A DNA stretch of 64,000 nt, from assembly GCF_000151665.1 (NCBI RefSeq), contig NW_013171816.1:1250204-1314203 (forward strand), written 5' to 3'. This DNA is from Blastocystis hominis. Taxonomy: Eukaryota > Sar > Bigyra > Opalinata > Blastocystidae. Below, piece after piece: positions 6,001 through 64,000 of the stretch (position 1 is its first letter; the number at the start of each line of letters is the position of its first letter). A program made the position numbers and the translations under genes. The notes beneath the pieces were generated by a model. The model ran no database searches, had not been told where the DNA came from, and worked only from the letters and a program-made list of their open reading frames with translations.

Positions 6001-8351
6001 CTGACCGTGTCTGTGAAGAAGGGCGAGACGGTGATGGAGACGCCCACTGTGCTGACGGTGGCCATGGCTACTGTGAGCAGCGTGACTCCTTCTGTGGCGT
6101 TCATCGGTGTTGCCACGACGTTCACGTTCGCTGGAGAGGGTCTCGGCGTTGGTACGAGCCCGGATCGTGTGGTGTTCACTACGATGGACAGCTGCGATTC
6201 CGAGAACCTTGAGGACAGCGTGGAGATCGTGGAGATGACGGCCACGAACACCTTCCAGGCCGCGGCCGAGAAGGTGCACCTCTGCGTGTCGCTGAGCAGT
6301 GGACCGTTCATGATGATGGCCTCCACGATCAGTGTCTACGGCTTGACCTCGATCCAGCCTACGAGCGTGCCTGCGTACAAGTCTGTGGAGTTCTCGCTGG
6401 AGGGAGTGGGTATCCAGGACGGCGACTTGTTGGTCTTTGTGGCCGCGGGCGAGGCTTGCGACCGCGAGGAGGCTCGCGTGGGCACTTCGGTGGTGCTGCA
6501 GAACATGAAGACGACCGTGACGCTGATGGGTGCGATCGACAAGGTGGACGTGTGCTACAGCTCTGTGACCTCGTCGCCTTCCGTGCTGACCAAGCAGCCG
6601 GTGCTGCTGACTCTGTACGAGGATGAGGAGACGGACACGGTGACGATGGAGCCGATTGAGTTGATCGCATTCGTGAACGTTGAGAAGCGCGTGCTGTTCT
6701 CCAGTCTGGAAATCGATAACAAGATTTCGTGGACGGAGAGTGGCGATTGCAACGATCTGGTGCTGAATCCTCCTGTGCGTGTCAACGAGCAGAAGGAGGT
6801 GCGCATGGAGTTCTCGGAAGGCTTTGAGTTGCTGCAGTTGTGCGTGTGCACCAACGGAGTGGACTTCGAGTTGCAGCCGAACGTGACGATGACTGTGATC
6901 AGTTTGAGCGGAGTGAGCGTGAAGGACATGCTGCTCTCGCTTCCGGAGGAGGTGCGTCTGAGTGGAACGGGCGTGTCGCTGGCCACGAACATGTTCTTCG
7001 TGAGTGGCGAGAGCGCGCGCCGTCTGGCCGCGGACGCAGCCTGCAGCAACGATCGTCGTGTGTCTACAATTGCCAGCGTGGTGGATGGAGCCGGCGAGAT
7101 CACGATAACCAAGCCTGTGGACAGTGCGATGCTGTGCGTGGCCTTCGAGGGATTGATGCCTCGCAGCTTCCCGGTGAGCATCTCCGTGGTGTATATTGAC
7201 AGCATGGAGCGCGTGACTCTGCCGGTGGGTGCTTCGAAGAGCGTGACGCTTCCTGTGCACAACCTGGATCCTGCCTTGGTGAACGTGCCTGCGTTCTTGC
7301 TGAACGACAACATGGAGTTGCGCAGCAACACCAACGTGACGGCGACTGCGGAGCCTGAAGGATTGCTGGAGGATATCTTCACGATGGACGAGAATAACTT
7401 GATGAAGTTCGGCGAGAAGCAGGTGAACATCACGATTATTCTGCCTGCTGTGTACGATATTCTTTCGATTTCGCTGGTGGCGCCGTCGAATGGATCGTAT
7501 CCTCAGACGATGACGGTGATGAAGTATGATTCTCTGGAGGTGCCGACTTCTGTCGGTACTGTGGTGCTGAGCGGAGCGAGCGAGGAGACTGCGGCTGCGG
7601 AAGAGTACTCGCTGCTTCTGAACACTCCTTTCACGAGCCAGGTGATCATGATCCAGGTGGAGTCGTCCTCGGAGAGCGATTTGCTGCTGCGCTATGTGGA
7701 GATGACGGTTCGTCCGATTGTGCAGCAGTCGGTGGTGTATGTGTTGCCGCCTGTGGAGAGCGAAGGCCGTCGTCTGGAGAGTGGTGACGCCGTGTGCATG
7801 GACGAGACGCAGTATGTGACGCGCCCGTACTATCTGAACGGAGAGAGCTCGTTCGTGGTCGAAGGCCTGGAGAGCGTGGAGAAGGGCGTGATGTGCTACA
7901 AGTACGCGGACAAGGCTTGGAAGATGTTCTCGGATTACGAGATTTCGATCGGAAGCATCAGCTCCATTGAGGTGATGAGCGGCGTGGCGGTGGTTGGTCG
8001 TCCGATGGATCTGCAGCTGAACGGCGTTGGCATTAACGACGAGGATAAGATTCTGTTCGTGAGCAGTGAGGCCATGAGTGACGAGGATTGCCTGGACAGC
8101 CAGTTCGCGGTGAGCGATGAGGTGCTGGTGGAGTCTCGCATGGCGAAGAACGTGGTGATTGTGAAGGCTGGAATGAGCAAGGTGTGCTACAGCTTCGGAT
8201 CTTACGGCTATGTCCTGTACGACAGTAACGTGGAGGTGGCCGAGTTCGTCGAGCTGACAACCTCCACATTCGTGGTTGCGAATGAAGAGTTCACGGCGAC
8301 CGTGAGCGGCAGTGGTTTGTCGGCTCTGGATCGTGTGCGTTTCATTGCGGT

Positions 8352-8384
<33 letters not shown>

Positions 8385-11300
8385 TGTGGATTGCTCGGAT
8401 GCCCGCTTCGAGTTTGCTGTGGGTGAGAATCTGGAGGTGAATGCGCTGATCACGGAGGGTGGCGACTATGAAGTGTGCTATGGATTCAAGAACGAGGTGT
8501 GGTACCACTACGCGTCTTCGAAGATCGCGGTTGCTGAGGTGAGCGGAGTGTCTTCGAGCTTCATCTACAACCACGAGACGAATACGATGTCCTTCACGGG
8601 TCATCTGATTTCTGCCTCGTCGACGACTGCCGATCGTGCGATGTTGAGTGAGAGCAGTGATTGCAGCATGCCGGTTTCGGTCGCGGACGTGTCTGCGGGA
8701 GTCGCGACATTCACCGATGTGTCCACCATGGCTACGGAGCTGTTCGTGTGCTACAAGTTTGCGGCGAAGGCCGACTTCATCTACACCGGAAAGCGCCTGG
8801 CGGTGGTCACGGTAGCGCTGAACGCGGTGGAGCCGGCGCGCGTGTTCGCTGGAGAGGAGGTGGTGTTCTCGTTCGACGTGGTGGGAGCCTCTGCGGACAA
8901 CGATCTGATCTCTGTGGGAGCGGACTGCACGACTGCGGAGAAGGTTGCGCTGGGCACTGCGATGGTTCTTCCTGTCGGCGTGTCTACGATGTGCTACTGG
9001 TTCAACGGAGTGATTGTGCGTCAGTTGACCGTCACCGCGGTGGATGTGACGATGATCCCGGATCCTTTGTTCATCCTGTCTCGCGAGCAGGTCGAGGTGA
9101 CGATCAACGGTTCCATGATCAGCAATGACATGATCGTGTCTCTGGTGTACACGGAGGGAGACTACAGAACGTATTCGGTGATGAACTCGAAGACGGTGAT
9201 TGTTGCTGGATACGGCGGTGACTTCGATCTGTACTTGTGTCTGGACAACGAATGCGGCATGAAGAAGAAGTTCGCTTCAGGAACGGTGCTGGAGATCGAT
9301 CCCATTGCGACGACGACGATCTGGACTGGAGGTAATACGGTCGTGACGATTACGGGCTACGGACTTACTGCGAACGACAAGTTCATCCTGAGCAAGACGA
9401 ATGGCGGTGAGGTGGCCTGCTGGGATAGAGATCTTGAGTTTGACGTGGATCTGGAGGACCGCAACACGGTGACCGTGACCATCCCGCCTCCCAAGGCGAT
9501 CTGCGATGGCGTTAGCTTCGATACGTACTACAAGTTCGGATCGCAAGCCCAGGTGAAGCTGAACCACACGATGACGATCTATCAGTCGACGTTCAGTCTG
9601 GCTCAGACGGTGTTTGCGGTGCCTCGCTCTGGCCTTGACTGCTCTGTGGCGGTGAACACGAATTACAACCTGGATAGAGACTTGTTCATCAAGTTGTCGA
9701 TTCCTGAGGATAGTTGTAATGATGTGGGAGAGTACACGGCGAAGGTGGAGAATGGAATGTGGCCGCTGCGAATCTCGGAGGGCTACGATGTGCCTCTGAG
9801 AGTGTGCTACAGTTTCGACGAGAATGAGTGGAATACGATGAACGATAAGAGCGTGTACCTGAAGAGCATTCTGCCCGGCACTGTGGCCGTTGCGCTCGTG
9901 AATACGCCCTTGACGTACTCTCTGCGCGCGACCGACATTTCGCTGGATGCGGAGGACCAGTTCAAGTGGGTGATCAAGGGCTCATCGTGCAGCAGCGTGA
10001 TTTCGTTCCCTGGAAGCGTTGGAGTGGATGGAAACCACACGGTGATCGTGGACAGCTATGAGGATGTGCTGTCCCTGTGCTACAACTTTGCGGGAACGAC
10101 GGAGTTCGTGCTGTACGACGACGTGGAGCTGCGTGTGGTCACTGTGGATTACCGTTCGCCTGCGAAGGTGGTCGCTAGCAAGTTTGTGAACATGGAGTTT
10201 GTCGGAAATGGTCTGGAGGGCGTTTCTGTGAAGTATGTGACTGCATCCGCGATGTCGTGCAACAGTGAGACGTTCGAAGAAAGCTCGGAGGGCACCATTG
10301 ATTCCGAGGGCAAGGTGCAATTGAAGTTCAACGGCGACATGATCGATGCCAAGCTGTGCATGCGCTACGGTGAGTCGCAGTACACGATGGTGGTGGATCG
10401 TCCTGATTTGCTGGTGACTGCGGTGCGCATGATGTCTATGCACAGCTTCTACTCCGAGAGCTCCGAGGTGTTGGTGACCTTCGACTCGATTCCGCTGGTG
10501 TTCACCACCACGGAGTCGGCTGCGGAGGCAGAGACTCGTCGTTTCCGAAGTGGAGTGTCCATGGACTGGTTCAGCAACGAGTGCGGCCGTGTGAGCCATG
10601 TGAATGCGGCCCAGAATATGGAGAGCCTGATCTCTGGCATGTACGAGATTCCTGCGACGGGCGCGTGCGAGGAGTCGGCGGGTCGCTGGATCCTGTTGGA
10701 TCTGGGCGAGTCTGCGAATGTGCGCGCGGTGCGCTTCGGCTTGCTGGAGAACGTGAAGTCCTTGATTGTTGGCTACCTGAGCGCGGTGGACGGCTACACA
10801 TTCATGCTGGTGAATCACACGAACTTGGAGGTGAGCTCGGTCGGAACGATTGATATTCCTGTGTCCTACGTGGGTCGTTACCTGAAGCTGCGGTTCGTGC
10901 CTGAAGATGAGCAGAAGAGTGTGTACGTGACGTTGGTGAACTTTGAGTACTCCAAGTCGGAGCCTGCTTTCGGTTCGGGAGTCCATGAGAAGGCGTTGCT
11001 GCGAAGTGTGTCGTCTTCAAGTGGTGCTGCTCAGCCTATGGAACTCTCTACGTTGGATCGCTCGATGACGTTCAAGTTCGAGGAAGGTGGATACTACTCG
11101 GTGCAGTACACATTCTTCGGCACAGAAGATATGAACTACAACAAGGATAGCTTCTCGAGCAAGATGCCAGTGAAGGATTTGACGGGCATGGAGTCGAACT
11201 CTGCGCTGTTGAACATTCCGAAGACGCTCAAGTTCATGTCGATTGGCAACCTGAACCGTACGGAGGACAAGGTGTACTACGTGCCGAAGAGCGAGGATGC

Positions 11301-14300
11301 GAAGTGCTCCATTGCGCTGGAGGCGGAGGCGATCGTTGTGGGTACGGAGGCGTATACCTTCATGGAAGCTGGCGAGTACTACCCGTGCTACTATTTCAGC
11401 GCTCTTGGCTTGGTGGACGAGTTTGTGTTGCTGACGCGCCCGGAGTTGACGGTGACGGTGTATGAGGATGTGCAGCTGTCTGTGTCTCCGACGAAGATGA
11501 TCACGCACGTGCCTACTCGTCTCACGATCAGCGGCCACTCGATCTCGTCTCGGGATACTGCGTTCATGTCGACGTCTTGTCCTCCAGAGACTGCATCGCA
11601 CGCTGTGGAGCTTGAGCTGGTGCAGGGAAGCGAGAAGGACACTGTGTATGCGGATGTGACGATGGACTACTTGGATCCGGAGTTCAGTATCTGCTACAAG
11701 TTCGAGAACGCGGACAACTACACGACTCTGCCGCAGACGATCAAGATGGCCTTGCTGCAGGATATTTCGCCTCGCGAGGTGGGTTATGACCATAACACGA
11801 CTCTGCGTCTGAGCGGTATGTCGCTGCAGACGTACGACCAGCTGAAGTTGGTGAAGGAGGGTGAACCATGCGACAGCGAGGGTTATGAGGCGCAGGTGAA
11901 CGACAGTCGCGCGGTGGTGTTCGTGGATAGAGTGAACGAGGTTTACGACGTCTGCTACATGTACTACATCATCGGCGATAACACATGGCACAAGGTGACT
12001 GGTTTGACTCTGAAGTCTGTGGCTCTGCGCTTGGAGTCTGTGGAGCCCTCGAACGTGTTCGTGTACAAGCCGACCACGCTGACTCTGAGCGGCACGGGTC
12101 TGATGTACGGATGCATGAAGTTCGTGTCGGAAGGCATGGAGTGCAGTGACATGGGTCACGAGATGGTTGGTACGAACCAGACGGTCATTCCGATCGTGGA
12201 CGGCAATAAGCTGCCTGTGAACTTCAAGGACGGAGGCAAGATGAAGATTTGCTTCAGCTTCGAGTGCACGCAGCCGTTCGGATACACCGGCAAGAATCTG
12301 ACTGCGTATGGTCTGACGGACGTGCAGCCTCGCTCGATGAATGCTTACGAGCTGGTGGTGTTTACTCTGGAGGGCTATGGCTTGCAGCCGGGTGACGCTG
12401 TGAAGATGGTGTCTCTGGATAGCGACTGCGAGCAGGATTCTTCCTACTCTTCGCTGACGATCCGGGATGATTTCACTGTGGTGATGTTCCCTCTGGTGGG
12501 AGGCGAGAAGAAGCTGTGCGTGGAGATGTCGATCGACGGCCAGAAGGTGTGGCATTCTGCGGATCACCTGCCTCTGATGGTGCGCGGCGTGACGCCTGGC
12601 GACCACGTCGCGGTGAAGGACGTGGAGCACACGTTCAACATGACGAACCAGCTCGGCTACACGTTGCAGCCCGGCGACGCGGTGCTGTTCACGCAGTCGG
12701 AAGCTTCGTCGGATGGAGACTGCTCGGGCATGGCGATTCTGGACGAGATCGTGGTGGTGAACGAGGACGGAACGTTCAACGTGACCTTCCCGCAGGCGGG
12801 CTTCGACTTCCGCATGTGCATTCGTTTCCACGACTCGGATCACTTCATTCTGCAGCGAAATGTGACGGTGGATGTGGTGACCCTGTCTTCGGTGTCGCAG
12901 CCGCTGCTGGTGGCTGGAACGGAGAACACGCTGGATCTGGAGGGAGTGGGTCTGACTTCGCAGGACCTGTTGGCGCTGGTGGCGGAGGACAGCTCGTGCC
13001 CTTCGGAGAGAGCTCTGTACTTCCCTGTGGTGATGGAGGATGACGGCTTCAAGTCGACGGTGCTGGTGCAGGAGGCGACGACGAGTCGGTACAAGGTGTG
13101 CTACATCTTCTCCGGTTACAAGATTCCGATCGAGTACAACTACATCCTGGAGGTGATCGATGCAACGATGGTGGAGACGGACGAGACGATCGTGCGCGAC
13201 ATTCCGGTGATCCTGCACTTCTCTGGACCGGGCTTCAATCTGTCCGCGGTGAACGTGCGTCCTCTGAATCAGAGCACATGGACGGGAAGAGTGGACGACG
13301 TGGAGGATGCCACGCTGACGGAGATGATCCGCACGGGCAAGGCGATGAGCACGACGTTCCCGCTGACGTTCTCCGTGGTGCAGTCGACGATCAACCACAT
13401 GCACTCGGTGTCTGTGAAGGTGGTTCCTTACGCCGCTGGCGTGACGCTGCCTCGTCCGATGGTGAAGATCAGCTACGAGTTCAACAACCGTGTGATGGAG
13501 GTGGAGACGATAGTGACAGACGTGGACGATGTGATGTCGATCGAGTTCATGACTCCGATCGCGGTGGACCACTTCACGATGGAATTCACTTCCGAGTCGT
13601 CGGAGCGCTACGTGCTGTCGAATCTGGTGGTGATGGGTTCGTTGCTGGAGGAGAACGCGTTCATCTACTACATTTCTGCCTATGATGACATCGACTGTAC
13701 GCAGGATCCCGAGCACTTCTATCCTGTGAACCTGGCGACGGGAACGGCTCTTCTGGTCTTCTCCGAGTCGGGTCCCATGAAGGCCTGCTTCCGCTTCGGT
13801 GGCAGTCAGTACGTGGAGCGCCCGAAGATCAACGTGCTGGTGAGCTACGCGTATATCCAGAACAGCTTGGTGAGCAGCGTGGTGGTGGGCGACACTGAGA
13901 GCAAGTCGATCGTGCTGAGCGGAGACGGACTGTCGGTGAACGACATGTTCAAGGTGGTGTACAACTCGTGTGACGAGGAGGGTCTGGTCGTTTCGAACGT
14001 GGAGGAGGAGGAGCAGGGCTCGATCGTGATTCGAGTGAAGCTGAGCTCTACGGAGCAGGACAAGGTGTATGTGTGCTACCAGTTCCCGAACTCCATCTTC
14101 TACATGTTGACGAAGGGCAAGAAGGTGGCGGAGCCGTACGTGATCAACGTCAAGGACATTCGCAGCTTCTCTGGCGCTGAAGGATTCGGCACTTCTGCGA
14201 TGGTGGTGATGGATAAGCTCTACCGACTGAGCGGCTTCGGCTTGTCGAACGATGACAAGATCGATTTCCAGAAGGAGAGTTGCCGAGACTCGGAGAGCGC

Positions 14301-17300
14301 GCTGGCAGTGATCGATGGCGAGGTGACGTTCAAGTTCAACGACGCGGGCATCTACCGCATGTGCTACCAGTTCAGCGGCGAGCGGATGGTGGAGTTCCCG
14401 TACCGTGTGCGTGTGGTGCAGGTGTCGAGAGTGGATCCCGAGTACGTGGTGAAGCTGGAGAACAGCACCGTGGACGTGTATGGTAAGGAGTTCGTGGAGG
14501 AGGATACGTTCGGCTACCTGATGAAGGAAGGCACCGGTTACTGCGAGCCTGTGGTCGACGTGTTCCTGTCTTCGGAGCAGGTGAGAACGAGCTACGTGTT
14601 CCCGGTGGCGGATACGTACTATGTGTGTATCCGTCTGGAGGGCGACTCGACGTTCTACACGATCGACAACGTGTACGAGACGGTGGTGAACGACTACGTG
14701 ATCGACTCTGTGGATAACGTGATGTTCCCTGTGACCACGATCGAGGAGAGAGATACGCACGAGATCGTCTTCAACGGCAAGACGGTGTCTGCCACCGACA
14801 AGGTGAAGTTCGTGGAGACGATGGATTGCTCGGAGGAGGCTGTGGAGTACCCCGTGGTGAAGAAGAATCTGAAGACGACGGTGAGCGCGGTGTTCTCGAA
14901 GAAGGTGCCGACGCTGTACATCTGCTACAAGTTCAACCAGAAGGAGTACATGCTGCTCAACCAGACGATCACTCTGATGTACGTGGAGACGGTGGAGCCG
15001 CAGTACATCGTGATTGCTACGGACTCCGTGCTGTACCTGACCGGAGAGCAGATCGAGAACGGTTATGTGAAGCTGTCGAGCGAGAACACGTGCTCCGACT
15101 CGCTGAGCGAGCGCAGACTGCGCAAGGACGCGTTCGGCAAGTACTACATCGAGACGATCGTGCGAAACTACCACCCGTTGGTGTACATGTGCTTCAAGTA
15201 CCCGAAGTACGGAGACAAGTACTACTACACAGGTCTGGCGGTCGACATGTATGGCTTGGATAGCATTTCGGAGCAGTCGTGGTTAGTGAATCTGCCTCTG
15301 CCGAGCGAGAACTCGGTGAACACGGAGGGTCTGGTCCTCTACGGAAAGGGTCTGAGCGAGGCGGTCATCCGTCTGGTGAAGTACAACTACGCGTGCAACA
15401 CGTTCGGCATTCCTCTGACGATTCACAAGATGAACACGAACGACACTTCTGCGGGCGTTACGGAGACTCCTGGATCGAACAGCACCAACAACATGGAGAT
15501 GGAGCAGTACCTGGTGGATCAGTTCACTGTAACGGAGGCTGGCAATTACAAGTTCTGCGTGCGGTTCGGAGACGAGTTCCTGAACTACGACTACGTGACC
15601 CTGCTGGTCGAGGAGTACTACGTGGGCATCGAGGGCGCTTCCAGCGTGGTGTCTCTGGTGAAGGAAGACGATCCGACATCGAAGAACTTTACGTTCACGG
15701 GTGCCGTGAAGTACTTCATCGACGTGGAGGTGAAGGTGATCGAAGGCAACGACTGCTCGGTCTCGAATGTGGAGGACGTGATGGTGTCCAGCGTGGACGG
15801 ATCTGTGGTGACGGTGTTGGCCAACAGTGGAGTCGAGTCCGTGTTGTATTTCTGCGTGCTCTTGGGCAGCGACTACTACCACGTGGACACGCCTCTGGAG
15901 GTGAAGGAGCTGACCACGGTGACGGTGAACGATATGGTGAACACGCTGAAGCTCACGGAGGGCACCTACGAAGTGTCTCTGGCGGGCTACCACGTTGGTG
16001 GCGAGGACATGCTGCGCTTCGTGCCTGTGGAGGAGAGCTGCGACTGGGTGTCCGTGTTGACGATGCCCGTGGGCGGCGATCGCAAGGCGACGCTGGAGAT
16101 CACTCCGGCGCTGACGCACGACGCGTACAAGGTGTGCTACAAGTTCAGCGGCGAGCAGGAGTATGCGGAGTATTCCAGCAAGACGCTGAATGTGTACCTG
16201 ATCTCCTCGATCCAGCCTACGCAGTTCGTGGCGAACGTGTACCAGGAGACGGAGATCATCGGTCTGGGCCGCGAGGTGGGCGACATGATCTGGTTCGTGG
16301 AGTCGGAGTGCGGCGAGCCTCCAGTGGAGGCGGTGGAGGTGACGAACGTGGAGGAGAATGTGATGCTGATGATCACCAACTCGATGGTGCACTACATGTG
16401 CTACTGGTTCCAGTCGTTCGGCACGGTACGCGTGAACATCGAGGTCACCGTGTTCGATGTGACGGCCTTGAGCCACAGCGGCTGGTTGACGGCTATTCCT
16501 CTGCCTACGACCGGCTATGCTTCGGACATGGAGAGCGGTCCGATGGTGCTGACGGGAAGCTTGTTCTCGCTGAGCGACAGCGTGAAGTTCGTGAAGAGCG
16601 AGGATGATTCTTGCACGGGTACCTCAACGGATCCGCTGCAGATCACGAACATCGAGATCGTGGACGTGGGCCAGAAGGCGACTCTGAGCAGCATCTTGTT
16701 CCCCGAGGCCGGAGACTACTATTTGTGCATCGTGCATGGAGCGAACAGCAACGAGTACCGACGCTACGGCAATCTGAAGGTGACGGTGGAGACGACGGCG
16801 ATCTCGGAGAGCCGCAACGACGCGGAGATGTTCGTGTTGACGGAGGATCCGATCCTGGACACGTTCTCGCTGACGGAGCCTTTCCTGAAGTACGTGTCTG
16901 GAACGGTGGAGCCTGTGTGGACGGAGAGCACGTGCATCAACTACGTGGACGTGACGGTGGAGAAGGTGAAGACGGAGGCTACGCTGGAGATCACGTCGAC
17001 ATTCACGCGCACGTACAACAGCCTGAGTCTGTGCCTGCGCCTTCCTGGCGACGTGTACGTGGCCTCGCGTATCCGCAAGGTGTTCAAGGTGTTCACGACG
17101 ATCGAGAGCCCGTCGCCGTTCATGTCGGAGACGCACAAGACGGTGCCTTTCACGATTCTGGGTCAGAACCTGAAGGTGGACGACCGAGTGGCTCTGGTGC
17201 CGACGAGCATGGAGTGCAGCGGCGTGGGATCCGTGGGATCCGTGGGATCCGTGGTGCTGAACAGCGGCAGTCTGAGCATCGAGCTGGATACGGCCTACAG

Positions 17301-19281
17301 CGACTACAAGGTGTGCTATCAGTACGCTGAGTTCGGAGAGACGAGCACCTTCTACCAGGTGGGCGATGTGGTGCTGACGGTGTACCAGTTGACGAGCGTG
17401 AGCCCGAGCACGTTGGTGCAGGGCCAGACGCAGACGGTGACTCTGGGACTGAAGAACGACAAGGACCTGCCTGCTGGCTTCGTGGTCCGCATTGTGGCGG
17501 CCTCGGAGAGCTGCACGATGGCGACGGCGTCCGTGAGCGCGATTGTGTCGAGCGACAACTCGATGGAGATGTCGCCCGTGGAGGACATCACGTTCGAGAA
17601 GGAGAACATGGTGTGCGTGAGCAGAGACGAGAACTCGCCGTTCTTCAGCTTCGATCTCGATGTGTCGTTCGCGAAGATTCTGCCGACGGAGGATCCGCTG
17701 CTGCTGCTGCGCAACTACAACAACAAGGTGCTGTTCTCGAACGAGGCCTCGGAGATGGACAAGTTCAAGTTCGTGGAGCTGAGCGACGACTGCGCGTCGA
17801 GCTCGAGACCGGACGTGCCGTTCACGCTGGAGGAGGAGACGAAGACGAGCGTGTTCAACCTGACGCAGGGCTTCATGGACAACAAGCTGTGCTACAACTT
17901 CTATCAGTCGCAGGGCTACTTCGCCTACGACCAGTACATGCTGAACATGCTGCCTCTGGAAGGAAACCAGCTGCTGCTGAACGAGATTGAGCATGCCTTC
18001 CGCGTGGTGAACAAGAATTACCAGAACCTGGTCACCTTCTTCATGGATGCGATGTCCATATCCTACACGGACTCCGCCGCCATCATGGACGGAGCTTCGA
18101 GCCTGGTGGAGAAGGACCTGGCGCAGTCCGCGAAGGTGCTCTACGTGCTTCGCATGCTGAACATGGACTTCGATTCGTTCGCTCGCCGCGTGGTGGGCGA
18201 GCTGACCGACAACGCCAATGTGACGGTGTTCGTGGGCGCCTACGCGCACGAGGTGATGAACGCGTATGCGGCTGGCGATTCGGAGCTTCCTCAGGCCTTG
18301 CTGGTGCTCATGGTGAAGGAACACGACGGCAACAGCGCGAAGGTGGAGGCGATCATGGAAGGATGGCGCTCGCTGGCCGAGTCGGCCGAGGGCAGCGTGG
18401 AAGGAGGAGAGACGGACTTCACGTTCAGCGATGGATCGGAGATTACGCTGGTGCCGAAGCCGACTTCGCGCCGTCTGGAAGAGACGACTGGCGGCAAGGT
18501 GTCGGTGAAGATCAACCGGTACGAGTGCGTGATGATCGATACGGATATCACGGAGGGCAACTGCTACGAAGTGCTGATCAACGGCACCGTGACGGGTAAG
18601 CTCAACGAGGACATGGAGCTTGGGTACACGAAGCGTATGGCCGGCGATAAGTTCTGCGCTCAGAAGGCGAACATGCTCTCGATCGGCTGGCAGCTGTATG
18701 ACGCCGCCGCAGAGAGCGATAGCTGCCGATTCGATTCGGGCAAGGCCTATGTGGTCGGCAAGTCGTTCGGTATCCTCACTACGTTCACGCAGCAGGAGAC
18801 GAGCGTCGCTGAGATCGACACGGGCGTTCTGACCGCTCTGCTGATCATGGCGATGGTGATCTTCGTGATTCTGTTCATTGGCCTGGCGTACGCGCTGTGG
18901 GTGTACGTGCATCCTGAGGACTTGTCGAGTCTGAACAACCTCTGGAGCGACTTCGATGAGCAGCGCAGGGAGAATCTGCAGAGACGCCAGAGAGAGCGCA
19001 TGAATAAAAGAGAGCAGATGCGCCGCGAGCAGCAGGAGTACCTGGACATGCAGAGAATGTTGGATGGTGAGGAGGAAGACTTCGTTGATGTGGATGACAA
19101 CAACAACATCAACTATCAGAACGTGCTGAACTACCAGCCCAACGAAGAGGAGCAAGCCCCGTTCCAGAACGCGCTGCGCGGAACCAACCAGTCGTCGCAG
19201 TTGGCCCAGATGATCGCGGAGAGTACGCAGATCTTCCAGGACGATACGATGATGAAGGAAGAAGACATCGGCGAGCACTAA
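1..19281 (+). CDS. Giant repeat-built type I membrane / surface protein (5' end outside window)
   Basis: The frame is open from base 1 through the TAA at 19279-19281, over 6,420 codons without an intron; the TTG at 22 is not a credible start, so the N-terminus and any signal peptide lie to the left. The protein is built of dozens of degenerate modules of about 100 residues. Each has a beta-sandwich-like pattern (P..V.....F...G.....D.V.F......C) and closes with a V/M-C-Y-x-F strand, so there are usually two Cys per module, as in IPT/TIG-like or Ig-like folds. Interspersed F5/8-C (discoidin)-like segments are seen near residues 5-130, about 1560-1690 and 3510-3640. A single membrane helix lies at about residues 6269-6295 (nt 18826-18906), followed by a charged, Gln-rich cytoplasmic tail of about 125 residues. 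N-glycosylation sequons are frequent. By layout it is an adhesin or receptor-like surface protein; the exact family is not recognised. The fold calls are pattern-based inference. Confidence 0.85.
8353..8383 (+). repeat. AGC trinucleotide run (poly-Ser) in giant gene
   Basis: About ten AGC triplets in a row encode a poly-serine stretch inside one module of the giant protein. It is a microsatellite and probably variable in length. Confidence 0.9.
17227..17253 (+). repeat. GGATCCGTG x3 tandem repeat in giant gene
   Basis: Three perfect 9-bp units encode Gly-Ser-Val three times within one module loop. It looks like recent slippage inside the coding frame. Confidence 0.9.
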
Positions 19282-21969: not shown

Positions 21970-22571
21970 GTTACTTTATTTAGCTATTAAAAAAAGGTGA
22001 GAACGATCCAAAGATTAATAAAGATCTTACCTAGAGTTCCTAATTATCAAATCTTAGTATTTTCTTCATTCATACCTGTTCATTCATATAGACATCCATA
22101 ATAATTAATAACATCCACGATAATAATCAATTGTTTCAATATGATTAATCTTTCATTTCGGATTCTGCCGTTGTTTTTTGCATTTTCAATAAATAGAGTC
22201 ATTTCGGCTAGGGTTCGTATGTAGAAACAGATACCTTAAAAATCACAACAAATTTGAAAATGTCAATAATTGAAAGGAAGCTAAAAGCATGGCTATTTAT
22301 CAACGACATGATATGGAATGAATCCTCCGAGTTTCAGAATCAGGTAAAATGTATATAATGTGAGTTTGTGTTTACGTGTTTGTAGATGTAGAAATGTAAA
22401 AATGTAGGTGATAAGATAGTTTTAATCCACAAAAGTGTTTTATTTCTGAAAATACACAAAACGAAGATGGAATGACAAATCTGGAGGGTATTTTGAGGGT
22501 CAAATGATCTCATACTTCGTTCTACAAAATTTTCATAATATTTTTAATTCGAGTTATAAAGCTGTTTGGAA
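21970..22571. other. Intergenic between Rab5 and the Cys-repeat gene
   Basis: About 600 bp of AT-rich DNA lies between two divergent start codons and presumably carries both promoters. The only open stretch of note is a 32-codon ATG frame at about 22259-22357, with a TGTTTGTA motif about 25 nt downstream. It is too short to call a gene. Confidence 0.5.
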
Positions 22572-23864
22572 ATGAATACTAACACCTGTTGTGGATGCCA
22601 TCTTAAGGAACAAGGCCTTGTTGCAGAAGAAGCTAATACTTGTCAAAGAGCCCATACAACCTGCTGCTGCAATAAATCTGGTTGCTGCTGTGACAAGAAG
22701 GAATGCTGCTGCTGTGAGGAATGCAAGTGTGGTGACAACTGTCAATGCACTGCTGAGAAGAAATGTTGCAAAGAATGCAAGTGTGGTGACAAGAAGGAAT
22801 GTTGCTGCTGCAAAGAATGCAAGTGTGGCGATAACTGTCAATGCACTGCTGAGAAGAAATGTTGCAAAGAATGCAAGTGTGGTGATATGAAGGAATGCTG
22901 CTGCTGCTGTGAGGAATGCAAGTGTGGAGACAATTGTCAATGCACTGCTGAGAAGAAATGCTGTGAGGAATGTAAGTGTGGTGACAAGAAGGAATGCTGC
23001 TGCTGTGAGGAATGCAAGTGTGGCGACAACTGTCAATGCACTGCTGAGAAGAAATGCTGTGAGGAATGCAAGTGTGGCGACAATTGTCAATGCACTGCTG
23101 AGAAGAAATGTTGCAAGGAATGTAAGTGTGGTGATATGAAAGAATGCTGCTGCTGCTGTGAGGAATGCAAGTGTGGCGACAACTGTCAATGCACTGCTGA
23201 GAAGAAATGCTGTGAGGAATGCAAGTGTGGTGACAAGAAGGAATGCTGCTGCTGTGAGGAATGCAAGTGTGGCGACAACTGTCAATGCACTGCTGAGAAG
23301 AAATGTTGCAAAGAATGCAAGTGTGGCGACAACTGTCAATGCACTGCTGAGAAGAAATGTTGCAAAGAATGCAAGTGTGGAGACAACTGTCAATGCACTG
23401 CTGAGAAGAAATGCTGTGAGGAATGTAAGTGTGGTGACAAGAAGGAATGCTGCTGCTGCAAAGAATGCAAGTGTGGCGATAACTGTCAATGCACTGCTGA
23501 GAAGAAATGTTGCAAAGAATGTAAGTGTGGTGATATGAAGGAATGCTGCTGCTGCAAAGAATGCAAGTGTGGCGACAATTGTCAATGCACTGCTGAGAAG
23601 AAATGTTGCAAAGAATGTAAGTGTGGTGATATGAAGGAATGCTGCTGCTGTGAGGAATGCAAATGCGGAGACAACTGTCAATGCACTGCTGAGAAGAAAT
23701 GTTGCAAAGAATGTAAGTGTGGTGATAAGAAGGAATGCTGCTGCTGCAAAGAATGCAAGTGTGGCGACAACTGTCAATGCACTGCTGAGAAGAAATGTTG
23801 CAAAGAATGTAAGTGTGGTGATAAGAAGGAATGCTGCTGCTGCTGCAAGGAATGCAAATGTTAA
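22572..23864 (+). CDS. Giant metallothionein-like Cys-repeat protein
   Basis: The single-exon frame of 430 residues starts at ATG 22572; the in-frame TTG two codons upstream is not used. A 49-residue N-terminal region with CCGC and CCC clusters is followed by 23 tandem modules of two kinds. Thirteen 18-residue A units have the pattern ECKCGDNCQCTAEKKCC(K/E). Ten 14-15-residue B units have ECKCGD(K/M)KE followed by four or five Cys. A and B mostly alternate, and the chain ends in ECKC. I count 157 Cys (about 36%), almost no aromatic or hydrophobic residues, and regular C-x-C and C-C motifs. This composition is that of metallothioneins, which bind Zn, Cu or Cd through thiolate clusters in the cytosol. 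It is many times longer than classical metallothioneins of roughly 60 residues. Metal binding is inferred from composition. A TTTGTTAA-type 3' element lies about 45 nt after the stop. Confidence 0.85.
   Translation: MNTNTCCGCHLKEQGLVAEEANTCQRAHTTCCCNKSGCCCDKKECCCCEECKCGDNCQCTAEKKCCKECKCGDKKECCCCKECKCGDNCQCTAEKKCCKECKCGDMKECCCCCEECKCGDNCQCTAEKKCCEECKCGDKKECCCCEECKCGDNCQCTAEKKCCEECKCGDNCQCTAEKKCCKECKCGDMKECCCCCEECKCGDNCQCTAEKKCCEECKCGDKKECCCCEECKCGDNCQCTAEKKCCKECKCGDNCQCTAEKKCCKECKCGDNCQCTAEKKCCEECKCGDKKECCCCKECKCGDNCQCTAEKKCCKECKCGDMKECCCCKECKCGDNCQCTAEKKCCKECKCGDMKECCCCEECKCGDNCQCTAEKKCCKECKCGDKKECCCCKECKCGDNCQCTAEKKCCKECKCGDKKECCCCCKECKC
22719..23861 (+). repeat. Coding tandem repeats, 54-bp and 42/45-bp units
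   Basis: DNA units of 54 bp (A module) and 42 or 45 bp (B module) are repeated 13 and 10 times with only a few synonymous or K/E and K/M changes. The order is A B A B A B A A B A B A A A B A B A B A B A B. The near-identity suggests recent expansion or gene conversion, and copy number is likely to vary between strains. Confidence 0.9.
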
Positions 23865-58933: not shown

Positions 58934-59022
58934 GCGATTCCTAGAAAGTGCATTTTGTTGCTTGTCTTGTTTGTTTTTGAAACTATTTTCGGTACGACGA
59001 AGATGATTTTAAACTTGTAATC

Positions 59023-59332
59023 ATGTCTGGAGGAGAGGTATATGAAATCGAGTTGGTTCTACTGTCTTAGACTCAGAAATCACTGTCACAGGTCGAAGAG
59101 GATATTAAGGAGGACATGGTGTATTATCGACAAACCCATACATCTTTTGTTGATCGAATGAAGGCTAACAAGGAGTTCCAAAACCCCAAAATTCTCGAGC
59201 AGACGGTGAGTTATTTCGGAATTGATGGAAACGGAACGCAATTTGAACCAGTTTTCTCATTGGTATACTGTAATTTATAGGAGGTATATGACCCGAAACA
59301 GTTTTCTCCAGAAGATTATGCTAGTCAGTTGT
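59023..59332 (+). CDS. SAP30BP/HCNGP-like protein, stop made by poly(A)
   Basis: Three exons (59023-59037, 59071-59250, 59281-59332) with introns of 33 and 30 bp encode 82 residues. The core HTSFVDRMKANKEFQNPKIL, SYFGIDGNGTQFEP and YDPKQFSPEDYA matches the HCNGP domain (NxxFxNPxIxExLxxxxxIDExGTN...D). SAP30BP-type proteins act in splicing of short introns and in transcription, which is notable in a genome of 30-bp introns. The frame ends ...ASQL plus T (59332). TGTTTGTT starts at 59337, exactly four bases later, so poly(A) would create TAA; no encoded stop is close by. The protein is much shorter than animal SAP30BP. Confidence 0.75.
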
Positions 59333-59336
59333 GTTG

Positions 59337-59344
59337 TGTTTGTT
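59337..59344 (+). terminator. TGTTTGTT 3' element of the SAP30BP-like gene
   Basis: A perfect TGTTTGTT starts 4 nt after the last encoded T of the gene. Spacing is the same as in NDUFAF5, CDK11, TCD1 and PRP38B. Confidence 0.65.
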
Positions 59345-59971
59345 TCATGATTCTTGCATTTTCTTATTCAACAAGACACGGAGGTCAAAGAAAACAGACG
59401 TTGAATCAGATAATGCAGCGACTCGTCATTTGGTTGTATTTTGTGTATCCTACAAATCTTAGTTGATAATAAAACTGAAATAAGGTATCGAGTTGAATCC
59501 CAAATATAATACAGATTTTAGATCATTTTTGGATAATTGAGATAACGTCTGTCTGTTTTAGAGATTAACTTGATGAAATCGATCTTCTCGAAGGTAAATA
59601 ATGTGATAATCAATGAATAATAAAGAGTGCGAGATTTGACTAGATTGTTTCTCTTTTTTTAGCATAGCATAATTCAGGTTGAAAGCAAGCGAGTGCAAAG
59701 AATTAATAATAATAATCATAATAATAATAATAATAATACAGATATTAAAAATAGATAGCAGTCTAAAGTGTTGATAGCTTCGCTATTCGGTGAAGTTCGG
59801 AAAGGTATTAATCATCTGTTTTTATAAAATATATTTGTATTTTACCGTGTTATATATACATATAGTAGTAGTAGTAGTAGTATATTCGTTTTATATATAA
59901 ATATATATTGATACAGTCAATAATCGATATCTTATTTTAGTGAATTACTATCTATATCCAAAATACTAATA
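59345..59971. other. AT-rich intergenic with AAT and TAG microsatellites
   Basis: No gene is seen. The stretch holds an AAT/AATAATC run (about 59704-59740), a TAG run (about 59864-59881) and many TA steps, and marks the left border of the AT-rich right-hand end. Confidence 0.7.
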
Positions 59972-62640
59972 ATGAATCGTATATCAGATGATATTTCAGA
60001 GAATGACGCAAAGGTCGTTCTCTGTTGTAACTTCACTTCGTCTATTGCAGTTTCTTTGAAGACCTTCTTTTCTTCACATGGATATGTGTCTATATTCCGG
60101 AACTCACTAAGTGAAGTAATAGCTCTAGGAAGATCAATACCAGCCTCTCTCATTTGCATTTCTGTTTCTGGATATGACACTTCATGGATTCGACTCATGA
60201 CAATAATGAATGTTGATCCTTTATTCTATGTTTCCCCGCTTCTGCTTATTAGTCAAAATGTGAGATTATTTGTTGATTCTTTTTTTAAGAGCTACTACCA
60301 GTTTTTTATTCAACAACAGAAGCAGTTCCATTTTTATTTACTTACAGATCCTATCTCATTTCAAAAACTATCTTATCTCTTACATACACTTGAAACTCCT
60401 ATTGCGATTCAATCATTGTAAATCATTTTATTCCTATATATGTCTTATATATTGTAGTGTAAACCATCATGCAGGCAAAGTCCTCATTATCGATGATTCC
60501 CTTGCAAGTTTATCTTCACTATCGTATCTTCTACAATGATTAGCAAAGTTGTTTTGTAGTAAAACGATGCGGATATACTCCAGTAACATTTTCTAAACCG
60601 GAAGACGCTATCAGCCATCTAAGTGAGAATTCGGATGTGAATATCAGATTCTCTTTTTATTTCATAGTATGACATTGCACTGATTGATTTAGTAATGCCT
60701 GGAATAAGCGGAATTCAGATGCTTCAAAAAATGAAAAACGACCCTCATCTATTTCTTATTCCCATAATCATATTATCTTCTTCTTCCGATAACGATAGCA
60801 TGGAACAGTGCTTTATTATGGGCGCATCAGAATACTTGTAAACATCACTTTATTCAATACAATCTCAACATAGGATTAAGCCTGTTTCATTTGAAGTTCT
60901 ACGATTACGAATGCAACGTGTTATAAGCGAAAACAGGGTTTACAAGGCGGTTTACAAAAACAACCTATCTTTGCTTCCTACCCAGACAATCGATGAAAAG
61001 GCCAAAGAGAGCACGCTATTCAATCTAGAACAGCCAGAACAACCAGAACAGCCAGAACAACCAGAACAACCAGAACAACCAGAACAACCAGAACAACCAG
61101 AACAACAATCAGACAAGAAATGGAGAAAGAGAGTTCATCGACTGCAGCAGCAGCTTCAACAAATGACTGATCAACTCGATTATTATAAGAAGGAGTATGA
61201 ATACCTTCAATATGGCACTCGGTCACTGAGAAAGCAGCTTGTTAGTCATTCAGTTATTCCCCAAATTCAATTAAAATATAACTACATGTATGATATGCAA
61301 CAGAATCAACTCCAAATCATTGATAGCGTGTTTCAAGAGAAGCAGTTACTTCTCTGTGAAACTCCCGATGATCTATTCAGTCAAACACTAATGAGTAAGC
61401 TGGAGGTTCCTAGTATTCTGCATCTTTCCATTCTACGAAAGTATTCTAACTTCATCCACTCCTGTCGAGCAGTAAAGTCAAGTGTATATTCGTATACGAA
61501 TTTAACAGGTGAAAAAGGTAGCCATCATTTTAATAATAATAATAGTAATAATAATAATAATAACAACAACAATAATGAGAATAAGATAAAGAATAATAAC
61601 AACTACTTTCAAAGATCAAAGCAGATTCCATTATCAAATCAATCTCTCTTTCTGTCTAGTACAGAACTAGAGCTGGGAGCAAGTATTTGGTGTGTAGAAC
61701 ATCAATCATTTGCTGACTGGTGGAAACTCTTTTTTCTTGGCTATGATAATAAGGAACGACTGTTTCAGAGTCTTTCTAACCAGGATACAGTAACATTTGC
61801 AGGCATAAAACAATTGATATGCGACTACTTGTTCTGGAACAAGGCTATCCAAATTGTTATTCATGATGCATACCAAACTCTATCAACCAACACATTTGCG
61901 ATGTGCTACCATCACTACATCTATTTAACAACTGTTGCTGCGGCTATATTGTTCAGTCTGAATGGATTAACATCGACTATGGTTGGTAAACGAGAATTCA
62001 TGCATTCAGGTTTATTCACAATTCTTCAGTTGCTGGATAAAAAGCCAATTACAGTGATCCTTCCATTCGCTCCTTCTTATTCACAACAAATATTTACCAG
62101 ATTCCAGTCACTTTGCGATACATTCGACGCGGAAATACTCAACCAGTCATGCTCTACGTGTCTACACCACTCTCCAAACTTTGATACTCAATTCGTGATT
62201 TCCGCTTCCAAGTTGATGGATTCGATGAATCCAAAACTATCCCGTTTATGTTTTAACAGAGCGTTTTCAAAAATTCATGCCCTTCTAAATCATCCTGAAG
62301 GAATGCAAATACATTATGAAGCATATGCTATGTTCAATATTTTATACAATGTACGTTCACAAAACTAAATGGTTTAGTATAGGACGCAATGGAAGGAAGT
62401 TCTCGTCGCTTCTGGTTTGAAATTATGGATGGGGATGGCGATGGAGTGTTGAACAAAGAAGATATTCAGGAACTAGTCAGAGAATGGAACAGTACGGCAC
62501 AGCAAACAGTAGAAAAGGAAACTATCTGGATCGAGTTGTGTGACTTATGTAGCATTCATTACGAAGATGAGATACACTATAAAGATGTCTGTAAAGAGAA
62601 CGTGAGTAAATTTTGCTTTCAGCGGTTAATACTCTGTTAA
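59972..62640 (+). CDS. Fusion: two receiver-like domains + PP2A B''-type EF-hand regulatory subunit
   Basis: ATG 59972 opens a degenerate receiver-like domain (KVVLCCNFTSSIAVSL to YLLHTLETPIAI) lacking the acidic pocket. A 40-bp intron leads to a complete receiver: GKVLIIDDSLASL (DD), KRCGYTPVTF, YDIALIDLVMPGISG (phospho-acceptor Asp), IPIIILSSS and LIKPVSFEVLR (Lys), with introns of 31 and 36 bp. Then come nine Gln-Pro-Glu units, a coiled coil, an Asn-rich run, and a half resembling the PP2A B''/PR72 EF-hand module: FADWWKLFFLGYDNKERLFQ, YIYLTTVAAAILFSLNG, IHYEAYAMFNILYN and, across a 32-bp intron, RRFWFEIMDGDGDGVLNKED. The stop is TAA 62638-62640. One junction near 60538-60566 has no canonical intron in the right frame. 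It may be a regulatory phosphatase subunit with a two-component input; the B'' match is by pattern order. Confidence 0.65.
61028..61106 (+). repeat. CAGAACAAC/CAGAACAGC (Gln-Pro-Glu) tandem repeat
   Basis: A 9-bp unit is repeated about nine times in frame between receiver and coiled coil. It encodes (Q-P-E)n and is a likely flexible linker of variable length. Confidence 0.95.
61531..61602 (+). repeat. AAT/AAC run (poly-Asn) in the receiver-B'' gene
   Basis: AAT and AAC triplets, interrupted by single codons, encode an Asn-rich loop in front of the B''-like half. Confidence 0.9.
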
Positions 62641-63282
62641 CATCTATGTAACAGCCCTGTTCTGTTTTGTTTGTAAAAAGCAGGTTTTTATATTTTTGTA
62701 ATTTAGAGTATGCCCCAATCAAAACGAGGGTTACATACCAAACGAATATGAAAGAAAATGAACAACTCAAATTAGCAACTAGTGAATCCAGAGAATAAAT
62801 ATCATATGTGTCGTTACTAATATGATTACTGACCTTACAACGCTCACATCGAGAAAAAAAGCGGTTATACGAAAAATGTTAATATTTGTATATGGTTAGG
62901 AATGAAGAAACCATAAGGCTATGTATATACAGATGGAACTCTATGCCGGAAAATAATGAATGGAGGGCACGAATTATAAATTTGAGTTACACTCTCATGA
63001 AGCATGCAGAAATTGTCCCTATTTTGGTCATATAGATCATCACCTTATTTGAGGAGTATAAACTATTTTGTAGGATATACTTCTATGTTCTTTTCATTGA
63101 CAAAAAACCCACAAGAAAGATAACACTTATGGACAATTAGCTGGAGAGTGTCTAACACTGTATGGGGTAAATCATATATGTTTATATGTATACAAGCAAT
63201 ATAATAATAGGTAATTACACAAACAACTATCAAATGCAAAATACTATCTTATTAATATACAGATCTTTGATTTTATATACAT
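62641..63282. other. AT-rich intergenic
   Basis: TGTTTGTA at about 62667-62674 is the 3' element of the receiver-B'' gene. A TTGTTTGTG element on the minus strand near 63220-63230 belongs to the following small gene. Otherwise only AT-rich DNA with short frames is present. Confidence 0.65.
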
Positions 63283-63510
63283 TTAGGACATAGATATAGC
63301 CAAAACCTCACTATACACGACTTCAGCGAAAAAGGGGGGAGAGGTGAAAGAATTAGGAATATCCACTTCTCTTAAACCAGATAATACAGACGCTTGTATG
63401 TTATCTCCAATATTCTGAAATACTACAGAATCATAGTCACTGTCGGGTTTGCCATTTCTAATATGTTCCAGATTTGCACTGACTATTCCTTGGGCATGCA
63501 TTAGTTCCAT
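63283..63510 (-). CDS. Small hypothetical protein (75 residues)
   Basis: The minus-strand ATG frame gives MELMHAQGIVSANLEHIRNG, then DSDYDSVVFQNIGDNIQAS, and ends AISMS with an encoded TAA. A TTGTTTGTG 3' element lies about 55 nt downstream on the same strand, which supports a real transcript. The composition is protein-like, but no family is recognised. It could be the last exon of a larger gene. Confidence 0.4.
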   Translation of the reverse strand: MELMHAQGIVSANLEHIRNGKPDSDYDSVVFQNIGDNIQASVLSGLREVDIPNSFTSPPFFAEVVYSEVLAISMS

Positions 63511-64000
63511 TTATTAACTCCCCAAAAAATAATATGAAGTCTAGATGACGCACATTTTGTATATAAGTAAAAGTGGAATTTTATTACCAAATAAGGACTA
63601 TTAAGAAACGTGTTGAAGGAGAGAAAGAGAGTGAAAATAGTATTATTTGCTAAATATTATTAAGAAACTACTTTACATCTCATAATAATTAATAATACCT
63701 AAACTATACAATATTAGAAATACATGCTTAAAGTACTTTTTTCCTGATAAAACATAGTATCAATTATCATCTACTATCGAGTGAATGAAGCCATACTGAA
63801 GAAACGGCTATTACTTTGAAAATGATCGAGTACACATATAATTGCCTTATATTGTAATTTTGTGCAAGCTCGCTTTGTAAAATCGTTTACCCATCACAGG
63901 AATAGCGTTGAGCACACTGCCACCCCCCCAGGAATTCCACAAGTTCCACAAGTTCCACGAGTCTGCAACAAACAACAAACTCAAACAACATTTTAAGCAA
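63511..64000. other. AT-rich end of window, no gene seen
   Basis: No supported frame. Near the right edge (63950-63990) there are ACAAACAACAAACTC repeats, which on the minus strand read as TTGTTTGTTG-type 3' elements. A minus-strand gene may therefore end just inside the border. A C8 run is at about 63925. Confidence 0.5.

Follow-up and report, generated by a model that had tools for sequence, protein, structure and literature searches.

A predicted Blastocystis gene joins an intact response-regulator receiver to a probable distant relative of PP2A B'' subunits

Blastocystis is a very common gut protist. We analyzed a 64,000-nucleotide stretch of Blastocystis hominis DNA (hereafter the window), which lies on contig C2 of a genome of 18,707,701 bases in 40 contigs that we also searched for partner genes. 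On the forward strand of the window we predict a six-exon gene encoding 834 amino acids once spliced, with limits identical to those proposed by an initial annotation made from the sequence (Table 1). The predicted protein contains a two-component receiver domain, a repeat-bearing linker, a predicted coiled coil, and a C-terminal half that resembles the B'' regulatory subunits of protein phosphatase PP2A. The stretch around the gene, from 59000 to 64000 of the window, is AT-rich (GC 0.30-0.38), and the adjoining 54.0-59.5 kb has a GC content of 0.39-0.60.

Table 1. Coordinates of the predicted gene, its parts, and a candidate partner kinase (window positions unless a contig is named).
Feature	Position	Strand	Details
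Whole gene	59972..62640	+	Exons 59972-60417, 60458-60523, 60549-60636, 60668-60837, 60874-62350, 62383-62640
Introns 1-5	60418-60457, 60524-60548, 60637-60667, 60838-60873, 62351-62382	+	40, 25, 31, 36 and 32 nt
Intron 2	60524..60548	+	25 nt, GT-AG, unusually short; exact junction uncertain
Exon 1	59972..60417	+	About 148 aa; receiver-like helix/strand order by eye; catalytic residues absent
Receiver domain	60480..60910	+	aa 157-269, with three introns inside; PF00072, E 8.5e-18
Predicted phospho-acceptor Asp207	60686..60688	+	Residue inspection
Conserved receiver Lys259	60878..60880	+	Shares its exon with the B''-like half
Nine-base repeat coding (Pro-Glu-Gln)n	61027..61106	+	Copy number differs in P0001
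Predicted coiled coil	61118..61249	+	aa 339-382; hydrophobic at 10 of 13 a/d positions in the best register
B''-like half	61253..62640	+	aa 384-834; Asn-rich insert around 61531-61599
YLTTV	61922..61936	+	Profile alignment with B''; PMC4090178
EF-hand loop DGDGDGVLNKED	62428..62463	+	Asp at position 12; aligns with the canonical EF7 of B''
Candidate poly(A) motif TGTTTGTA	62668..62675	+	One mismatch to the Blastocystis motif; 28 bases past the stop codon
C38 hybrid kinase gene	L004 (G000:C38:124800-134000)		Sole HisKA match in the genome

The splice model uses short GT-AG introns chosen by reading. Intron 2 is suspect because introns of Blastocystis subtype ST7 are most often 30 nt long, with many at 31-38 nt (PMC5608401); it is also the sole GT-AG option found by reading that preserves the length of the receiver. 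Against a small receiver profile, four readings of its junction scored between 98.2 and 101.2 bits. With a spread of 3 bits the profile cannot pick the junction, and the receiver holds under any of the four. The last strand and helix of the receiver (IKPVSFEVLRLRMQRV) stand at the start of exon 5, followed by the coil and the C-terminal half. Exon 5 is open from IKPV to NILYN with zero stops, placing the receiver lysine and last helix in frame with the C-terminal half. Within 59800-62800, only two sites, at 60267 and 62668, come within one mismatch of the published Blastocystis poly(A) motif, TGTTTGTT (PMC4159000). The absence of such a motif between the two halves is a weak argument for a single transcript, because the same interval holds 41 sites with up to two mismatches.

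The deposited model for this region, P0005, is a 203-residue 'uncharacterized protein [Blastocystis hominis]' that starts at 61901 inside exon 5, and the public gene model is therefore without the receiver. It uses the same exon 5-6 junction as the six-exon model and splices exon 6 differently near its end, where the six-exon reading retains a stretch that aligns with the B'' EF8 region. A search of the genome with exon 5 gave one strong match, the gene itself, and the remaining matches had E values of at least 0.011; as far as exon 5 shows, the fusion gene is single copy.

Relatives of the gene preserve the junction between its halves. A first search (1651 candidates, E<=0.01) returned four relatives, and a second with the C-terminal half (864 candidates, E<=10) returned nine: P0001-P0004, P0006, P0007, P0009, the deposited P0005, and P0008, the first part of which seems by eye to be unrelated. 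All nine belong to the gene's own family, and canonical B'' was absent from this database search up to E 10. Apart from P0005, the relatives look like unspliced open-frame predictions. In P0002 and P0004, the end of the receiver (IKPVSFEVL or IKPVSFDVL) is in frame with the B''-like half; P0007 starts at (M)SFEVLRLRM, P0001 starts at MQRVISENR, and the others start further in. The N-termini of P0002 and P0004 correspond to an out-of-frame translation of the receiver exon just before, codon-compatible with CFI.GASEYL or CFI.GA.EYL, and the C-terminal end of P0003 reads as exon 6 in a shifted frame, compatible with DAMEGSSRRFW. For each of these three proteins, none of 5,000 shuffled peptides was compatible. 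P0004 is 47-50% identical to the window protein, which suggests that the receiver/B''-like arrangement is probably of long standing in this group. Scans of viral and prokaryotic contigs for relatives yielded 38 and 130 pattern matches, respectively, with none confirmed. The continuous open frame, the same order in several relatives, and the deposited exon 5-6 splice together support the earlier proposal that the receiver and the C-terminal half form one gene, as predicted by splicing.

The initial annotation placed a degenerate receiver upstream of the complete one. Read by eye, the first strand of exon 1 is without acidic residues and its terminal LLTDPISF recalls the LIKPVSF of the receiver. 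Exon 1 gave zero Pfam matches up to E 10 and no significant BLASTP alignment to the gene's own receiver (best E 2.0). Comparison by hhalign aligned the two in register with a score of 16.9, against at most 14.8 for 30 shuffles and 16.0 for a reversed control. On these results the degenerate-receiver identity of exon 1 is unproven.

The domain downstream of exon 1 is a genuine, intact response-regulator receiver, in agreement with the earlier reading of a complete DD, Asp, Ser/Thr and Lys set. Pfam Response_reg (PF00072) matches residues 157-269 at 65.0 bits, above its curated cut-off of 30.2, and the catalytic set is complete (acidic pair D161/D162, acceptor D207, S237 and K259). Searching the PDB with the receiver returned PleD/PhoB structures at E values of 5.8e-14 to 2e-12, with PleD first, and the best-matching NCBIfam models were PhoB and PorX. 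As a positive control, hhalign comparison of the receiver with bacterial and HK receivers gave 99.7% probability and a score of 152.8. A search of 72,556 plasmid records found 136 matches, 125 of them from Rhizobium, Sinorhizobium or Neorhizobium; the best 30 of the 136 reached up to 35.4% identity. Since all 136 lie below 60% identity, recent transfer is not visible in that collection.

Between the receiver and the C-terminal half lie the Pro-Glu-Gln repeat and the predicted coiled coil. The length of the Pro-Glu-Gln repeat differs between the window and the near-identical P0001, as does that of the Asn repeat inside the B''-like half (61531-61599), suggesting that these linkers vary among isolates.

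The spliced C-terminal half contains WWKLFF (61718), YLTTV (61922), RRFWF and the EF-hand loop; the first, the third and the loop are among the signs of a PP2A B'' subunit that the initial annotation had named. When the half was searched whole (331 aa) against the PDB with phmmer, the top three matches were PP2A B'' alpha/beta proteins (8e-5, 3e-4 and 4.7e-4), with the next family at 0.18. We then compared a family profile (nine rows, six retained by the program, Neff 1.6) with one built from 14 vertebrate or unnamed B''-beta proteins. The hhalign alignment reached 94.8% probability and a score of 66.4 over 205 columns at 23% identity, against at most 23.5 for one reversed and 20 column-shuffled controls. 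It is collinear from YLTTV to the EF8 region and includes the second calcineurin-B-like domain. With the EF-hand loop masked, the register was unchanged at a score of 38.8 (36.4%), and 21 controls (one reversed, 20 shuffled) scored at most 24.7. Columns from exon 5 alone aligned in the same register with a score of 28.5 against at most 21.1 for 13 controls, at an hhalign probability of 4.7%; in global alignment their register was lost, and dropping most exon 6 columns from the comparison gave 15.6%.

Other searches with the half, or with pieces of it, gave less. Pfam EF-hand_13 scored the half at 18.7 bits, below its cut-off of 22.6, and scored the exon-5 pieces of the window protein, P0002 and P0003 at 11.9-12.8 bits, with no match in P0004. 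Exon 5 alone, and profiles of its relatives, had zero PDB matches up to E 10. Exon 6 alone found generic EF-hands first, with B'' first appearing at rank 19. Masking the 12 loop residues removed all phmmer matches of the half to the PDB up to E 10. Before YLTTV, which covers 229 of the 464 columns, we found no B'' signal (score 15.2); an Ile-Pro at residues 385-386, kept in all seven rows that reach it, and PSILHLSILRKY look B''-like by eye only.

PR70, a B'' subunit, has two calcineurin-B-like domains in which EF5 is non-canonical and EF7 canonical (PMC4090178). The half has one canonical loop, of the EF7 type; a second Ca2+ loop as in PR70 is not kept, since acidic residues in the expected pattern are missing at the EF5 position, ahead of which the alignment has 17 extra columns. 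AlphaFold prediction of 379 residues produced four helix-strand-helix units at low confidence (pLDDT 56.4, pTM 0.56), and pLDDT fell to 45.5 for the 203-residue protein. The strands of the 379-residue model lie at residues 562-564, 626-628, 698-700 and 735-737; in this low-confidence model they fall at positions that we read as EF3-EF6 of PR70, the last three by profile alignment and the first by eye. The phmmer and profile comparisons support the B'' assignment of the initial annotation, which had named a lack of B'' similarity in a profile search as refuting it, but the Pfam score lies below cut-off and the N-terminal part is without signal. We take the C-terminal half to be a probable distant relative of the PP2A B'' subunits; with EF-hand_13 missed and one of the two Ca2+ loops not kept, we stop short of counting it as a formal member.

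We searched the genome for components of both pathways. Response_reg matched two genes, the fusion gene and a gene on contig C38, and HisKA matched one, the C38 gene, which encodes a hybrid kinase. As the other receiver sits inside this kinase, the fusion protein appears, by domain models, to be the sole stand-alone response regulator. Exons of the C38 gene match HisKA (8.9e-8), HATPase (2.7e-7) and Response_reg (9.7e-14), with PAS_4 below cut-off at 0.0025, and its kinase motifs are readable (FHEVRNSLTP, INNFLSN, DTGIGI, GTGLGLSL, LLDYEMPG and LLAKPI). By simple hydropathy, its 959-residue N-terminal frame has no clear membrane segment (one 19-residue window above 1.6), and the kinase looks soluble. 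Oomycetes, too, have hybrid kinases that are rich in PAS domains and lack membrane segments (PMC3019232). HATPase_c had 12 matches in the genome, including the C38 gene; the remaining 11 presumably include Hsp90, MutL or topoisomerase types. The HPt model, which gives matches in 8 of 14 control genomes, gave none here up to E 1 in six frames. This miss is weak evidence, because conservation among HPt domains is poor (PMC4709007) and introns may interrupt them. Of the histidine kinases and HPt proteins that the initial annotation proposed to look for, the genome thus yielded one HisKA hybrid kinase but no HPt match, and a phosphorelay input to the predicted receiver is plausible.

PP2A itself is represented by an A-subunit exon (8.9e-37, on C36) and a C-subunit exon that matches at 5.8e-76, against 1.6e-47 for PP1; B56 subunits account for 15 exon matches. 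An earlier candidate for the A subunit, the first PF22646 match on C6, was dropped as it reads like SF3B1 by eye, and the C36 match was used instead; another PF22646 match lies on C40. PF17958 had no match in the genome up to E 1, and its controls were silent as well, so that this result is no evidence of absence. Searching the genome with vertebrate B'' up to E 1 found only one exon, on C34 (E 0.008), and missed the fusion gene. The C34 exons (L026 3437-4174) read by eye like a FASS/TON2-type B'' (ENKRSPEAVRYWFNILD) and lie apart from the fusion gene; Pfam gave them weak EF-hand matches below cut-off. The fusion gene is thus probably not the sole B''-like gene in the genome.

Our preferred reading, toward which the balance tips modestly, is that a predicted coiled coil links an intact receiver to a likely divergent B'' subunit, and that phosphorylation of Asp207 would alter the assembly or aiming of the PP2A holoenzyme. 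In such a scheme, a signal would cause the C38 kinase to autophosphorylate on its histidine and pass the phosphate to its own receiver, from which it may reach Asp207 of the fusion protein through an HPt or by direct transfer. Phospho-Asp207 would change the alpha4-beta5-alpha5 face, which adjoins the coiled coil, and may thereby alter dimerization; altered pairing could in turn affect how the B''-like half docks on the PP2A A subunit and which substrates are chosen. The single canonical EF-hand may add a Ca2+ (or Mg2+) input. More tentatively, and with somewhat less than even confidence, we propose that this organism has cut its His-Asp signaling down to a single soluble hybrid kinase and a single stand-alone regulator, itself a PP2A B'' subunit, so that the whole phosphorelay would end directly in a Ser/Thr phosphatase to which Ca2+ would give another input.

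Three other explanations bear on these proposals. We judge it highly improbable that the receiver exons belong to one gene and the B''-like half to another, or that the two come from alternative transcripts: the deposited P0005 does begin inside exon 5 without the receiver, and intron 2 is odd, but the beta5-alpha5 segment of the receiver (IKPVSFEVL) stands at the start of exon 5, in frame with the remainder, and the junction is preserved in P0002, P0004 and P0007, to which the distribution of close poly(A) motifs adds its weak argument. The identity of the output half is less settled. It may be an EF-hand (calcineurin-B-like) protein that is remote kin of B'' and works outside PP2A, which would make the whole a Ca2+-sensing response regulator with another target. 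The collinear alignment from YLTTV to EF8, which beats its 21 controls even with the loop masked, and the rank of B'' as the three best PDB matches of the whole half lead us to think this unlikely. It gains from the ordinary EF-hand character of exon 6 alone, the sub-threshold EF-hand_13 score, the silent region before YLTTV, the absence of canonical B'' from the nine database matches, and the failure of vertebrate B'' to find the fusion gene.

Doubt of a comparable size attaches to the input. The receiver may not be driven by phosphotransfer from the C38 kinase and its role may be that of a phosphate sink or of a constitutive dimerization or docking module. The missing HPt match points this way, though weakly for the reasons given above; all five catalytic residues are present and the genome holds a hybrid kinase with readable catalytic motifs, and we consider such a passive role doubtful. 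The reading we prefer is still a receiver that, once phosphorylated, would act on PP2A through a B''-like half.

The usual output of a response regulator is DNA binding or a catalytic domain. Some bacterial response regulators carry a PP2C-type phosphatase output, and Dictyostelium RegA combines a receiver with a phosphodiesterase. The fusion protein resembles these in that a receiver governs a signaling enzyme and not DNA binding, and differs in that they have their own catalytic domain, whereas its output would belong to a multi-subunit eukaryotic phosphatase as a regulatory subunit. Its receiver has the full catalytic set of PleD and PhoB, its best solved relatives, joined here to an EF-hand, B''-like half that is neither DNA-binding nor a cyclase. 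Like PP2A B'' (PR70/PR72, PPP2R3A/B), that half has the YITTV helix, the EF5-EF6 lobe, the Y.WF motif and the EF7 loop in the same order over the 205 columns. Unlike them, it shows 23% identity in that alignment, scores below the Pfam cut-off, has an Asn-rich insert and a non-canonical EF5 loop, and is preceded by a receiver and coiled coil, with an N-terminal domain that is not recognizable. Among 120 of 2173 B'' proteins listed, of which the named ones are vertebrate, none has a receiver among its precomputed Pfam domains. If the proposal is true, the protein would connect a bacterial-type phosphorelay directly to a main eukaryotic Ser/Thr phosphatase, and as domain models find a single HisKA kinase and a single stand-alone receiver protein in the genome, the whole pathway looks small enough for rebuilding in vitro.

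Ectocarpus BASELESS is a stramenopile PP2A B'' with a disordered region and two EF-hand domains (PMC10112911); it matches the fusion protein in being of the B'' class with EF-hands in a stramenopile and differs in that the available part of that paper mentions no receiver. A targeted search of open-licence literature (titles and abstract openings, with subscription journals mostly outside the collection) returned no report of a receiver-PP2A subunit fusion or of Blastocystis two-component proteins, which agrees with the earlier view that the architecture is undescribed. In the searched text of a comparison of ST1, ST4 and ST7, the words 'histidine' and 'two-component' do not occur (PMC5608401). 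The available parts of two other papers mention Blastocystis only as lacking aureochromes (PMC12558739) and only in a reference (PMC5447177).

Elsewhere in the window, a 434-residue open frame at 22560-23864 (+) consists of Cys-rich repeats (KECKCGDNCQCTAEKKCC) and looks by eye like a very long metallothionein-like array. At 1-19281 (+), a single frame of 6,426 residues, open at its 5' end, has repeated stretches and, by eye, a membrane-like segment near its C-terminus.
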